Shown: positions 54,172 through 58,039 of the stretch, piece by piece
Layout: each line of letters starts with the position of its first letter
Numbering within the stretch: position 1 is the stretch's first letter
Assembly: GCA_001795455.1 (NCBI GenBank)
Contig: MGPB01000021.1
Span: 124,001 to 188,000 of the forward strand
DNA: 64,000 nucleotides
Direction: 5' to 3'
From: Curvibacter sp. GWA2_63_95
Lineage (GTDB): Bacteria > Pseudomonadota > Gammaproteobacteria > Burkholderiales > Burkholderiaceae_C
The notes under the pieces: generated by a model
Databases searched by the model: none
Told to the model about the DNA's origin: nothing
The model's input: only the letters and a program-made list of their open reading frames with translations
Program-made: the position numbers and the translations under genes

Positions 54172-54182
54172 ACGCCACCGCC

Positions 54183-54677
54183 ATGCCCGCATCCACCGCG
54201 CCCCTGAAGCTGGCCGCCGTGGCCTGCGTACTCTTGTTCATAGGGCTGGGCGTGTACCTGGCACCGCTGCAACCCAGCGTGGTGGCGCTGCAGCTCACCT
54301 TCACCCCCGACGCCTTTGCCCAGGTGCTGCAAGCCTGGGGCCCCGAAGGCGTGCAGCGCTTTCGCAACCACTTGGTCGTGGACGGGCTCCTGATGCTGAG
54401 TTACGGCGCAGCAGGTTATTTGGCCGTGGTACGCACCCATTTTTTTGAACCCCTGGCGAATAGGCTACCCCTGCGCTGGGTAGCTTTGCTGTTGCCAGTG
54501 GCGGCGCTGTGTGATGCGGGGGAGAACCTGCTGCACTGGGAGCTGACGGGTAGCGACGCGTTGGCTGCGCCTGCGGCCGCCGCTTGGTGCTTGGCAGCGG
54601 GGCTTTGCGCGGCGTTCAAATGGGTGGGTATTGGGGTGTTTGCATTGGCCGCATTGATCGCGCGTTTGCAGCGCTAG
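54183..54677 (+). CDS. Hypothetical membrane protein
   Basis: A 164-residue protein with about four hydrophobic helices (about 9-28, 68-85, 98-115 and 128-158) and an N-terminal PASTAPLKL start. No family recognised. It starts 11 bp after the lipoprotein gene, so probably the same transcript. After its stop codon the sequence changes to the accessory segment. Confidence 0.72.
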   Translation: MPASTAPLKLAAVACVLLFIGLGVYLAPLQPSVVALQLTFTPDAFAQVLQAWGPEGVQRFRNHLVVDGLLMLSYGAAGYLAVVRTHFFEPLANRLPLRWVALLLPVAALCDAGENLLHWELTGSDALAAPAAAAWCLAAGLCAAFKWVGIGVFALAALIARLQR

Positions 54678-54682
54678 TTGGA

Positions 54683-54724
54683 CTTTGGGTGAGCCAATCT
54701 CCATTGGCTGATTGCGACCCAAAG
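54683..54724. terminator. Long inverted repeat at the edge of the accessory segment
   Basis: Outer arms CTTTGGGT / ACCCAAAG and inner arms AGCCAAT-CTCC-ATTGGCT nest into one imperfect hairpin 5 bp after the stop of the membrane protein gene. It may terminate that transcript, though no T run follows, or mark a recombination border. Confidence 0.5.
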
Positions 54725-54884
54725 CGGTCCTCGGTAATCTCAGTTTGATTGCTCAGTAGCAGACATTCAGGAATGGAACGCCAGGCAGGTACGATGGACA
54801 GCCGATATGCGGCGAAAGCGGACCTCAGCAGAATCACCTGAATGGGGGATAGGCAAGTCCTGTTTCGACCATCAAAATAGCAAT

Positions 54885-55139
54885 ATGTCACGTCCATTTC
54901 TCAGCCGTTCAGCCATCGTTGATGTCATCAAGAGCCAAGAACGCACAAACGCTATTCAAAAACGCGAAGGCCTAACAGCTCACCCTGTCAGGTTTACTGT
55001 TTGTGGCTGCCCAGACCCCAACTGTGGAGGCTGGCATACCGTCAAGACTGACACAACGATTCCATCAGCAGAGGAATGCGTAACGATCATCAAAAAAGAC
55101 AATGCAATTCGCAAGCGCGGAAAAATCAAAGCGGAGTAA
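54885..55139 (+). CDS. Small zinc-ribbon-like hypothetical protein
   Basis: An 84-residue protein starting at the ATG at 54885 (the frame extends upstream without support). It has CGCPDPNCGGWH near 45, four possible metal ligands (three Cys and a His), and a basic C-terminus KKDNAIRKRGKIKAE. No family recognised. It is the first small gene of the accessory segment and has a weak ribosome site. Confidence 0.55.
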   Translation: MSRPFLSRSAIVDVIKSQERTNAIQKREGLTAHPVRFTVCGCPDPNCGGWHTVKTDTTIPSAEECVTIIKKDNAIRKRGKIKAE

Positions 55140-55537
55140 CGAGTGCTTTGGAGTCGTGCGAACGACCTCTTTCAGTCTGTAGATGCCTCGGCTTCGCCGC
55201 GGAAGCGGACTGTCAATGAAGACACCGCGCTCTGGGTTGTTGCAGGGTTCCGCAATTCTGTTATCACCATCAAATTGCATCCCACGTAAAAATGCGTAAT
55301 GAAATCAAAGAGTTCCTGAGCTGGCGTTAACGGTGTTCATAAGCAAGCCGCCTTGTTCATAAGCAGGGTTGCAGGGTTTGGCCTCATTTTCATCGATGGT
55401 CACGCGGCATCGGGTCTGACTAATCGGATATAAATCAAGCACTTAAAGAATCCACGGGAGGGAATCATGGGTGTATGTGGCTCTGTTCATAAGACCTGTT
55501 TGATGTCTACAACACGTTAAACCGCTTTAACCCAATC
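55140..55537. other. 398-bp gene-free stretch in the accessory segment
   Basis: No credible gene. It contains a GC-rich inverted repeat around CGGCTTCGCCGCGGAAGCGG (about 55188-55207, with CAGTC / GACTG outside it), three direct copies of TGTTCATAAG, and a 12-codon open frame starting at 55292 that may be a gene relic. Confidence 0.5.
55334..55493 (+). repeat. Three direct copies of TGTTCATAAG
   Basis: Copies at 55334-55343, 55354-55363 and 55484-55493. The first two are 20 bp apart and followed by C; the third is 130 bp further on. Their spacing suggests protein-binding sites or the end of a mobile element (inference). Confidence 0.6.
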
Positions 55538-55906
55538 ATGCGTAATCCAAGCTCCCTGCTGCTGGTCATAGTGGCCTTCGGTATCGCTGGCGCCTTTTGG
55601 GCGGGGCATTTCATCGCGCGGCATGACGCTGAGAAGATCACGCTAGGAGCAATTCAAGCAGTTTCAGTTCAGGACGCCGCGGCATCATTCATGGTTACCT
55701 CTGGGGCGCGCGCAGCGTTGCAAGAAGGGAAGCTCGTGCAAGCTGATATGGTCCTGCGCAACTATGGCGCTTTGAAAGCCTCTACGCTTATCGAGTGTAG
55801 AAAGTCGGCGGAATGCGTAAGTGAGGCTGGTGCCCTAATGCCTACTGAAAACGCCCTAAATGAGGCACTTGCTGCAGCTAGATGGCCCGAGGGAAAGCGC
55901 CAATGA
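55538..55906 (+). CDS. Cassette-type hypothetical membrane-anchored protein
   Basis: A 122-residue protein with one N-terminal hydrophobic helix (about residues 6-27, LLLVIVAFGIAGAFWAGHFIA) followed by a soluble part containing two cysteines (IECRKSAECVSEAG). No family recognised. Its stop lies 13 bp before a well-formed attC site, the position expected for an integron cassette gene. Confidence 0.65.
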   Translation: MRNPSSLLLVIVAFGIAGAFWAGHFIARHDAEKITLGAIQAVSVQDAAASFMVTSGARAALQEGKLVQADMVLRNYGALKASTLIECRKSAECVSEAGALMPTENALNEALAAARWPEGKRQ

Positions 55907-55919
55907 TCCGTGATACGCC

Positions 55920-56006
55920 GCTTAACATGTCGGCCCACTCGGACACACAGCAGCACTTTTCCGCTGCGCGGCGCATGCTGTGAGTCGGTGGCCTCCAACG
56001 TTGGGT
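55920..56006 (+). other. Integron attC recombination site
   Basis: Starts with GCTTAAC (fits RYYYAAC) and ends with GTTGGGT (fits GTTRRRY), 87 bp long. Between them, arms around CGGCCCACTCGGACACACAGC and GCTGTGAGTCGGTGGCCTCC pair with a few extra bases, the imperfect hairpin typical of attC. It sits 13 bp after one small gene and 3 bp before the ATG of the next. Confidence 0.72.
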
Positions 56007-56009
56007 GTC

Positions 56010-56462
56010 ATGAGCACAATCGGCACGCTGGTGAGAGCATTGCGCCAAAGATTTCGCGAGATCGGGGAAAACCTATCAGACGATTCACAGCAAAGACTTC
56101 CGGACGCGCCAGCCTCACCTGAATGGCTGGAGAAGGTCAGGCTCAGTCGTGCGTCAGAAGAGTTTGTCATGGGTGTTGCGAACAAGATGTCGCCAGAAGT
56201 CCAGGCTCACCTCAAAAGTCTGACTCAACGCGACGTATATCCTTTGTCACTTTTCGCACTCATCAAGCTCGTGAAGACAAGTTACGAAAGCGCAACGCGC
56301 TGTTTGTTGCATGACATGATCACGAAAGATGAGTACGACACCATACAAAGACTCTCGCCACGTATCCTAAGCGAGCTATCAGCGTTATCTGCCGATGAAA
56401 GCGCTGTTCATTCTGGCGGGGAACTATTGGCTAAGCCAAGCAAACCCGGAATAAGCGAATGA
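56010..56462 (+). CDS. Cassette-type hypothetical soluble protein
   Basis: A 150-residue protein beginning 3 bp after the attC site. Mostly helical, with LVRALRQRFREIGENLSDD at the start, FVMGVANKMSPEVQAHLKSL near 50, and LIKLVKTSYESATRCLLHDMI near 85. No family recognised. After its stop codon is GCCTAGC (56464-56470), which resembles a decayed left attC box. Confidence 0.65.
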   Translation: MSTIGTLVRALRQRFREIGENLSDDSQQRLPDAPASPEWLEKVRLSRASEEFVMGVANKMSPEVQAHLKSLTQRDVYPLSLFALIKLVKTSYESATRCLLHDMITKDEYDTIQRLSPRILSELSALSADESAVHSGGELLAKPSKPGISE

Positions 56463-56512
56463 CGCCTAGCTGGACGCTTCAATACCGCGTTGAAAGCACT
56501 TGAGGCATAGAA

Positions 56513-56707
56513 ATGATCTTCGGGTGCGTTGATGAAATTGCAGTTGAATTTGCCGCCGATGAAATTGGATATTCGAATTTCTTGTTGGGGCGTTGTTGCC
56601 TGGCTGTCAACGGGAAGAAGTATTTTCAGACCTTCACCAAACACACAATCTGGACTTCTCCCGCTTCGGTAGACATATTTCAGCCGCCAGATACCGGACA
56701 TTCGTGA
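56513..56707 (+). CDS. Truncated protein resembling an Imm42-type immunity protein
   Basis: A 64-residue reading frame. MIFGCVDEIAVEFAADE and the following FLLGRCCLAVNGKKYF resemble the start of Imm42-type immunity proteins, which protect against polymorphic toxins, but that family is about 150 residues long. This copy therefore appears cut after 64 codons. No cognate toxin is seen. The likeness comes from memory of the family pattern, so it is tentative; it may be a cassette remnant. Confidence 0.4.
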   Translation: MIFGCVDEIAVEFAADEIGYSNFLLGRCCLAVNGKKYFQTFTKHTIWTSPASVDIFQPPDTGHS

Positions 56708-56793
56708 CTGTCGGCAACTGGCCCCAAGCTGCCGTCGGTCGAAAGAGAAAATCCATAGAACGGAAAAGTGGCCGCTCAACGCCCGCGTTAGGC
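56708..56793 (+). other. Probable second attC site (degenerate left end)
   Basis: GTTAGGC at 56787-56793 fits the right box GTTRRRY and is preceded by GGCCGCTCAACGCCCGC, a common right-arm form. The left arm GGCAACTGGCCCCAAGCTGCC pairs only partly, and its left box is degenerate. It would close the cassette containing the Imm42-like fragment. Confidence 0.5.
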
Positions 56794-56812
56794 GAAATAA
56801 CCAATCTCCGAG

Positions 56813-57370
56813 TCAGCGCGCACGTCGGTAGTGCATGGCGACCGCGCCGCAGCGCAGCGGCTTCGCCGTAATCAGCTCGAGCTTCCGGGTGCTGGGCAGC
56901 CCGCTCTCATACAGGGTAGGGCCGTGGCCGGCAATCCTGGGGTGGACGAGGAGCTGGTACTCGTCGATCAAATCCAGCCTCTCCAGCTCGGTCGCAAGCT
57001 TGCCACTGCCGAGGAGCACGCCGCCAGGGGTCGCGTCTTTGAGTTTTTCTATGCTCCCGCGCAGGTCACCGGCGATGTGGTGGCTGTTGTTCCAGGGGAA
57101 GTCCCTTCGCGTCGAGGACACCACGTATTTTGGTTTGGCCTCCAGCTTGACCGCCCATTCGCGCATGGCTAATGGTGCGTCCGTATCACAGCGGGCGACA
57201 GCGGGCCAGTAGCTCTCCATCATCTCGTAAGTGATGCGCCCCCACAGCATCGCCCCGCTCTCGTCCATGAGCTGGGTAAAAAAAGCATGTGTCTCGTCGT
57301 CGGCAATGCCTTCCTGGTGGTCGATGCAGCCATCCAGGGTGACGTTGATACTGAAGGTCAAGAGTCCCAT
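56813..57370 (-). CDS. Dihydrofolate reductase-family protein (RibD C-terminal type)
   Basis: A 185-residue protein of the RibD C-terminal / dihydrofolate reductase-like fold. Marks are SINVTLDGCIDHQEGIADDETHAFFTQL, MLWGRITYEMMESYWP near 40, and VLLGSGKLATELERLDLIDEYQLLVHPRIAGHG near 120. These proteins often have unknown reductase substrates, so dihydrofolate is not implied. It is on the opposite strand, ending 20 bp beyond the attC-like site; it may be a reversed cassette gene or the first host gene after the array. Confidence 0.88.
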   Translation of the reverse strand: MGLLTFSINVTLDGCIDHQEGIADDETHAFFTQLMDESGAMLWGRITYEMMESYWPAVARCDTDAPLAMREWAVKLEAKPKYVVSSTRRDFPWNNSHHIAGDLRGSIEKLKDATPGGVLLGSGKLATELERLDLIDEYQLLVHPRIAGHGPTLYESGLPSTRKLELITAKPLRCGAVAMHYRRAR

Positions 57371-57442
57371 GGTGTCCTCCGTTCAAGAGGCGCGATTTTT
57401 AATGATCTTTCGCGCCGTCGCCAAAAACTGTCTGGCGCCCGC

Positions 57443-58039
57443 CTAAATCCATCCCATCCATCCCGCAATCGCCCCCGCGCCCAGCAGCCATAGCAAATGA
57501 ATGCGGGTCTTCCAGACCAGCAGGGTGCTCACCGCGGTCACGGCCCACAGGGCCAGGTGGTGGGTGTCCGCTTTGTGGTTGGCGGCCAGGATCCAGCCGG
57601 TGGCGACCAGCAGGGCGATCACCAGCGGGGCCATGCCTTGTTTGAAGGCGCGCACGGCGCGCAGCTCGCGGTTGCGGTGGCCCCAGCGTGATGCGGTGAA
57701 GGTGAGGATGCTGCTGGGCAGCATGATGCCCAGCATGGACAAAAACACGCCCAACATGGCCAGCGCCAGGCCATACCAACCCGCGCCCAGGCCACCTGCA
57801 GCGTTGAGGCCTATGGTCCAGCCCAGCAAGGGCACAAACAAAATGTTGGGGCCGGGTGCGGCCTGCGCCAGTGCAATGCTGTTGCTGAACTGTTCGGCGT
57901 CCAGCCAGCCTTGCTCCACCACCAAAAAGCGCTGCATGTCAGGCGCAGTGGTGATGGCGCCGCCCACTGCCAGCAGCGACAGCGACGCAAAGTGCATGAA
58001 CAGTTCCAGCCACTGGGCCGCAGTCAGGGTGATGCTCAT
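57443..58039 (-). CDS. chrA: Chromate transporter, C-terminal half
   Basis: One half of a split ChrA-type chromate/anion exporter. From the ATG at 58039 it has 198 residues with about five hydrophobic segments. FASLSLLAVGGAITTAPDMQRFLV near 16 and ALAQAAPGPNILFVPLLGW near 55 are the conserved CHR features. Its partner half is immediately upstream and overlaps by 4 bp. Two separate short halves are a known arrangement (short-chain CHR pairs), so this is not a broken long gene. Confidence 0.88.
   Translation of the reverse strand: MSITLTAAQWLELFMHFASLSLLAVGGAITTAPDMQRFLVVEQGWLDAEQFSNSIALAQAAPGPNILFVPLLGWTIGLNAAGGLGAGWYGLALAMLGVFLSMLGIMLPSSILTFTASRWGHRNRELRAVRAFKQGMAPLVIALLVATGWILAANHKADTHHLALWAVTAVSTLLVWKTRIHLLWLLGAGAIAGWMGWI

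Follow-up and report, generated by a model that had tools for sequence, protein, structure and literature searches.

Cassettes inserted at attG genomic sites are insertions that IntI makes away from the integron, and arrays that lack intI are commonly regarded as remnants. The attI site is usually described as adjoining intI, while the action of IntI1 on an attI1 site on another plasmid is established in the laboratory, according to the available part of the source (PMC9668308). Clusters of attC sites without an integrase (CALINs) are called at a default threshold of two or more attC, and in Xanthomonas they lie at recurrent chromosomal loci, the accessible text of that study reporting no attI there (PMC12444791). 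The delta-attI cassettes of class 1 and class 2 integrons hold attI away from its usual place, in a form usable by IntI1, as far as the available text goes (PMC12901181). As described in the accessible sections of its paper, IntegronFinder 2.0 leaves attI undetected outside class 1 (PMC9024848), and an attI-headed satellite arrangement could therefore be common and go unseen. In the literature searched, with most subscription journals outside its scope, we recognized no description of conserved attI loci without intI.

The window analyzed here is a stretch of 64,000 nucleotides from Curvibacter sp. GWA2_63_95. Its positions 55203 to 56462 are very probably an integron array without its integrase gene, one among a set of dispersed satellite attI sites that are filled in trans. 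The initial annotation had proposed integron cassettes without an integrase and likened them to a CALIN; the first part was borne out, but the CALIN label fails, one attC only being supported. The unit is headed by an attI (55203 to 55522) that the annotation had overlooked, and an attI-anchored integron array without intI describes it better than a free attC cluster does.

The attC site on the plus strand (55920 to 56006) is as the annotation had it, with GCTTAAC as its R″ box and GTTGGGT as its R′ box. A gap of 13 bp separates it from the stop codon of the preceding open reading frame (ORF; 55538 to 55906), and the next ATG, at 56010, follows after 3 bp. The site scores 77.6 bits (E = 2e-22) with covariance model R2, the second-best R2 match in the 64-kb window reaching 13.6 bits, and copies 71 to 87% identical occur in relatives. 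R2 comprises 20 attC sites from other genomes, with the window and its own genome excluded; its sequences were gathered by iterative searching, with the window attC as the seed, and are thus relatives of that site, not an unbiased sample of attC. Besides the R″ and R′ boxes, the site has paired L″ and L′ arms with covariation, 13 of the 25 model pairs showing two-sided change in at least one sequence. Folded as single-stranded DNA, the bottom strand gave a z score of −1.8 against shuffles (9 of 200 as good). A search of 45 to 64 kb with Rfam returned nothing at E ≤ 1 and so offered no ready attC family.

A second right-end box had been placed at 56787 to 56793. The GTTAGGC is present there on the plus strand, isolated and outside any detectable attC: R2 has no match at this place up to E = 10, and as a site end the box lacks a usable RYYYAAC, the nearest lying 13 bases upstream at 56774. 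Over 2.9 kb of plus strand there are five GTTRRRY motifs, where base frequency predicts roughly three. We also considered the box as the inverted attC of the neighboring RibD_C-domain gene and rejected this, as the window holds no paired box. Where the annotation had asked for at least two covariance matches in the same orientation, one was found, below the two or more attC of a CALIN, although R2 represents one attC type and others could escape it. A cassette cluster left behind without attI or integrase would account for the real attC, the small unrelated genes and the absence of any integrase found nearby; with a single attC and an attI at the head of the array, we consider that origin very unlikely.

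The first cassette (55517 to 56000, plus strand) is complete at 484 bp, with G^TT at both ends, and its 5′ end GTTAAAC agrees with its own R″ GCTTAAC in three of four variable letters. Its gene (55538 to 55906) encodes 122 amino acids (aa) with a possible N-terminal membrane segment, as judged by eye, and has matches of 28 to 38% in 2 of 399 family genomes besides its own. Cassette 2 starts at 56001 and was followed to 56462 on the plus strand; its gene (56010 to 56462, 150 aa) has a 40% match in 1 of the 399 genomes besides its own, and no closing attC was found for it with R2 in the window. Pfam and NCBIfam gave no function for either gene, and no R2 attC was found beside their homologues in other genera. 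A GTTAGGT box considered as the pre-gene box of the G075 homologue was discarded when a strand check put it on the wrong side.

Farther right, a 64-aa ORF (56513 to 56707, plus strand) corresponds to the N-terminal third of Imm42 (PF15593; E = 5.7e-4; 20.8 bits, below the cut-off of 27.2) and is probably a gene remnant. The RibD_C-domain gene (56813 to 57370, minus strand; PF01872, 53.6 bits) is of uncertain array membership. Copies 78 to 87% identical in DNA occur in G412, G455, G406, G401 and G446 (L036 to L039 and L041), in surroundings that differ by eye, and the gene looks like a mobile neighbor. In G412 it is preceded by a degenerate attC; in the surroundings of the other copies, no box like GTTAGGC was seen by eye directly behind the stop codon. 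The window's genome also has two more lone attC sites (G000:C17:15370-15456 and G000:C21:306464-306553), with no attI match in their fetched surroundings.

The attI module itself lacks intI and ends at a cassette junction. Copies 72 to 92% identical occur in the window's own genome (contigs C8 and C39) and in relatives, and the own genome has three attI copies. We call the module attI because its relatives sit beside intI, the position that defines attI: in G349, G417 and G471, sequence of the window type separates intI from the first cassette, and in G430 it adjoins intI at a contig end. With no model involved, BLAST aligned window positions 55353 to 55519 with the G349 sequence adjoining intI at 73% identity (E = 2.8e-20). 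The intI-bearing copies have, between attI and intI, a motif that we take to be a LexA-like box. With 54500 to 57600 as the query against 61 genomes, including the window's own, 55172 to 55519 recurred elsewhere, and many copies stopped just before the first gene. Aligned copies are alike up to approximately AACAC^GTTRRRY and unlike past it. In the window, homology among attI copies ends at the junction box G^TTAAAC (55516 to 55522, plus strand), and the crossover would fall between 55516 and 55517.

Within the module, all on the plus strand, GTTCATAAG repeats are read from the sequence at 55335 to 55343 and 55355 to 55363, and a third lies at 55485 to 55493, with most columns invariant over 14 copies; these are candidate IntI-binding direct repeats. 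TATAAA at 55429 to 55434, invariant in the 14-copy alignment, is a candidate −10 element of a cassette promoter, and it was absent from the output of a consensus promoter scan. The sequence and the attI copy alignment give GGGAGG at 55456 to 55461 as a candidate ribosome-binding site, followed by a candidate leader ORF of 17 codons, MGVCGSVHKTCLMSTTR (55467 to 55520), which gains its stop codon TAA at the junction. Its start codon lies at the same distance in 44 of 49 attI copies; in 32 of the 49 the conserved position is followed by a stop codon, a few of those copies lacking the ORF. Differences at codon positions 1 to 3 (0.35, 0.24 and 0.31) are suggestive only. The first gene of the window array is probably read from the attI promoter.

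Short ORFs that have a ribosome-binding site and end exactly at an attI junction, which supplies the stop codon, were seen in three attI types that look unrelated (L115, L116, L117, L118, L120, L129, L130 and L131, upstream of intI). The rule was passed by 10 of 19 intI loci with a junction, two of the 10 (L126 and L127) having 8-aa ORFs, against 3.5% of shuffles. Such ORFs recall ORF-11 of attI1. At the left edge of window-type attI copies there is a short intergenic motif around GCCTCGGCTTCGC.GCGGAAGCGGAC (window, 55136 to 55215; L059, 5902 to 5940 and 7018; L134, 3883 to 3943; L065, 7158 to 7207). It recurs near two window-type attI copies and, in G399, directly behind an attC. Considered as a transposon end, the 80 bases at 55136 to 55215 weakly matched four other places of the own genome at E ≤ 10.

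The window thus has an attI with a G^TT junction and a cassette with attC; the remaining component of a complete integron, the intI gene, is missing from what was found in its genome. The annotation had noted no visible intI in the window, and none was found in the whole genome (99.93% complete), in which TIGR02249 had no match over the cut-off and none at E ≤ 1e-30. Four partial TIGR02249 matches look Xer-like, and matches of the same kind occur in all 14 control genomes. Among 103 same-genus genomes, 21 have a match over the cut-off. R1-type attI motifs (R1 being our attI model) lie beside four IntI, 85 to 100% identical to the G349 IntI, while 15 genus IntI at 63 to 74% identity have other sequences at the attI position; for one more 85% IntI (L128), the contig is cut 95 bp upstream. 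The attI type goes with the IntI type.

Model R1 had 57 matches in 27 of the 103 genomes at E ≤ 0.01 and 47 matches in 25 genomes at E ≤ 1e-10. At the stricter threshold, 14 genomes carry two to four attI, and 14 of the 25 lack a TIGR02249 match at E ≤ 1e-30. The latter 14 include three assemblies in one contig (G459, G462 and G474) and one in two contigs (G399); G461 and G480 count among them, yet hold intI fragments. We examined 54 of the 57 attI contexts, leaving out G419, G466 C11 and G426 as weak. A full intI adjoins 4 of the 54, and clear intI fragments occur at three (G461, G480 and G406 C81). A doubtful 19-aa piece lies at G430 C145, and G417 C40, at a contig end with only 2 bp upstream, is not assessable for intI. 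Five contexts had no junction call, leaving 49 loci; for G472 0.03, which has no attC and stands outside the permutation described below, the script misplaced the junction. An exact attI-core pattern found 18 stretches in the GTDB r220 species genomes, where the window's own records may be absent, all under the names Rhodoferax, Curvibacter or Comamonadaceae, or under broader ones that fit this group.

Four attI loci are shared between genomes. Loci A to D are orthologous by their flanks, with left-flank identity of 75 to 99% that runs to the junction in nearly every pair, and the DNA between the junction and the right flank differs among genomes. At locus D, the right flank resumes after 483, 1474, 2443 or 3577 bp; a right flank was not recovered between G462 0.42 and all four others of locus C, or between G471 and G461 at locus A. 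The locus D insert is missing in G399, G461, G417 and G431, and no target-site signature was seen at these empty sites. In the attI tree, copies of A and D group together (1.0), as do those of C and E (0.88). The separation by locus is not clean: neither B nor D stays in one group, and C lacks G462 0.42 but takes in G417 C85; the A and D copies of G472 pair (0.81). Our reading of these sequences is that the satellite sites are old, with some exchange among them. In G217, a strong locus D satellite coexists with an IntI that is nevertheless of another type and has another attI; the filling of this satellite must therefore be the work of an integrase that was not found in G217.

Two further observations concern the surroundings. 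The window stretch from 54172 to 57438 is variable: its two gene ends join directly in G399, G417 and G427, and G217 and G431 carry other filler there, because of which the insert as a whole is not datable. At L150 (G462, 1.19 Mb), the sequence 638 to 1248 bp after the junction matches the locus A right flank at 80%, and its attI may be a further locus A member. Three matches between locus A arrays and G462 1.19 were rejected as shared cassettes, as their positions are those where the locus A right flank resumes.

The dispersal of the segment, with its candidate −10 element, ribosome-binding site and leader ORF, is also what would be seen if it were a promoter cassette or a MITE-like repeat often found upstream of cassettes, and not an attI. 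Such a unit does not account for its position next to intI in four genomes, leading straight to the first cassette in three, or for the flanks that copies at orthologous loci share and the grouping of many copies by locus in the tree, exceptions included. Nor do the last 87 bases have an attC-like fold in four attI copies (z = −1.2 to 1.4), in a test that separates poorly, three attC giving z = −1.9, −3.7 and +1.6 (the last being L065). We regard the promoter cassette or repeat as hardly probable at all, and the segment continues to be treated here as attI.

Locus A bears on how an attI can come to stand without its integrase. Three of its seven members (G349, G417 and G471) have intI between a shared flank and attI; at that place intI is partial in G461 and was not found in G458, G399 and G472. 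A complete integron at the window's position could have lost intI in the same manner, with capture in trans playing no part. Against such a local loss, the DNA upstream of the window attI and of its closest copies (G417 C85, G466 C7 and own C8) yielded no intI fragment, and the window-type copies share 320 to 380 bp without intI in differing surroundings. Local loss would also leave unexplained a cassette, described below, that is identical at an intI-less site of G349. We therefore consider it unlikely, if less so than the two alternatives above, and favor filling of satellite attI sites in trans.

Capture at intI-less attI leaves a mark in the cassettes themselves. The 5′ end of a true cassette complements the R″ of its own attC. 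A first attC with a readable R″ was detected in 22 of the 49 junction-called loci, and for the 19 loci not beside a full intI, which include two with intI fragments (G480 and G406 C81), the 5′ end agreed with the R″ of the first detected attC in 62 of 76 variable letters. Permutation gave a mean of 42.0 and a maximum of 58, none of 10,000 permutations reaching 62; 11 of the 19 agreements are exact. The attC detected first may lie further into the array, as it does in G349 1.60. No attC was found within 2.6 kb at 24 of the 49 loci, and three others have an attC with an unreadable R″; these 27 loci neither support nor oppose capture, and dead satellites or other attC types may be among them. On this evidence, the intI-less attI loci look like genuine capture sites.

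A cassette common to two sites was found in G349 (three contigs). The first cassette at its intI-less locus C attI (1.60 Mb) is also in the locus A array that has intI (0.81 Mb), identical over 571 bp, on the same contig and about 0.8 Mb apart. GTT opens both copies, and they part immediately past the next GTTA, limits from which the shared unit is a 567-bp cassette; the left neighbor is attI at one copy and attC at the other. Although this is one pair, it reads as a direct sign of capture in trans, and it gives indirect support to IntI-mediated recombination at the window attI. Two further cassettes, 81% and 89% identical, are common to loci A and D, with left starts at GTT or GTC, and could be old. 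A cassette pair of G406 C81 and G481 C149 is 71% identical. Separately, a G399 locus C cassette also occurs in G465 (C17), at 93.5% over 479 bp, at a place without an attI match.

On the reading that we prefer, Rhodoferax and its close kin would have a chromosomal integron together with satellite attI sites dispersed elsewhere. An IntI like those beside attI in G349, G417, G471 and G430 would fold circular cassettes at attC and insert them in trans at each matching attI, near or far, and each attI would serve as an expression platform for its first cassette. Locus A displays stages of an intI deletion that leaves attI behind. In the window's genome, the integrase would have been lost or never fixed while the attI sites and arrays stayed, so that the array would be frozen unless an integrase arrives; with no integrase found in that genome, present activity there is not expected. 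We conjecture that the window copy type spread via short intergenic repeats or cassette-like units. More generally, integrons can probably be multi-site, one chromosomal integrase serving several vertically inherited attI loci that outlive it. If this is true, some arrays filed as CALINs may be attI-headed satellites missed by finders. A genus with multiple attI, in several genomes of which no integrase was found, provides separate cassette expression platforms and a natural test of trans action.

How this arrangement relates to described systems depends on the part considered. Compared with cassettes at attG sites, the target here is a conserved attI, a cassette at a place with no attI match being a side case (G465 C17). 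Like a sedentary chromosomal integron, the window has an attI with a GTT junction, a cassette with attC, a candidate promoter and a leader ORF; unlike one, it has no intI in place and none that was found elsewhere in the genome, and there are several attI per genome. The Xanthomonas CALINs, as far as the accessible text describes them, likewise hold cassettes without a local intI at recurrent chromosomal places, whereas the window array is headed by attI and has one attC only. Delta-attI cassettes share with the window a displaced attI and show that attI pieces can move (PMC12901181). According to the available text, however, they are mostly short attI pieces that replace attC behind an ORF, whereas here attI stands in front of the array. 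The nearest precedent is the attI-headed CALIN of a Shewanella prophage, in which, from the portion of that work available, a second attI likewise heads an array without an intI of its own. That is one case in one prophage, whereas the sites described here are chromosomal, lie at several orthologous loci in many genomes, and come with evidence of exchange.
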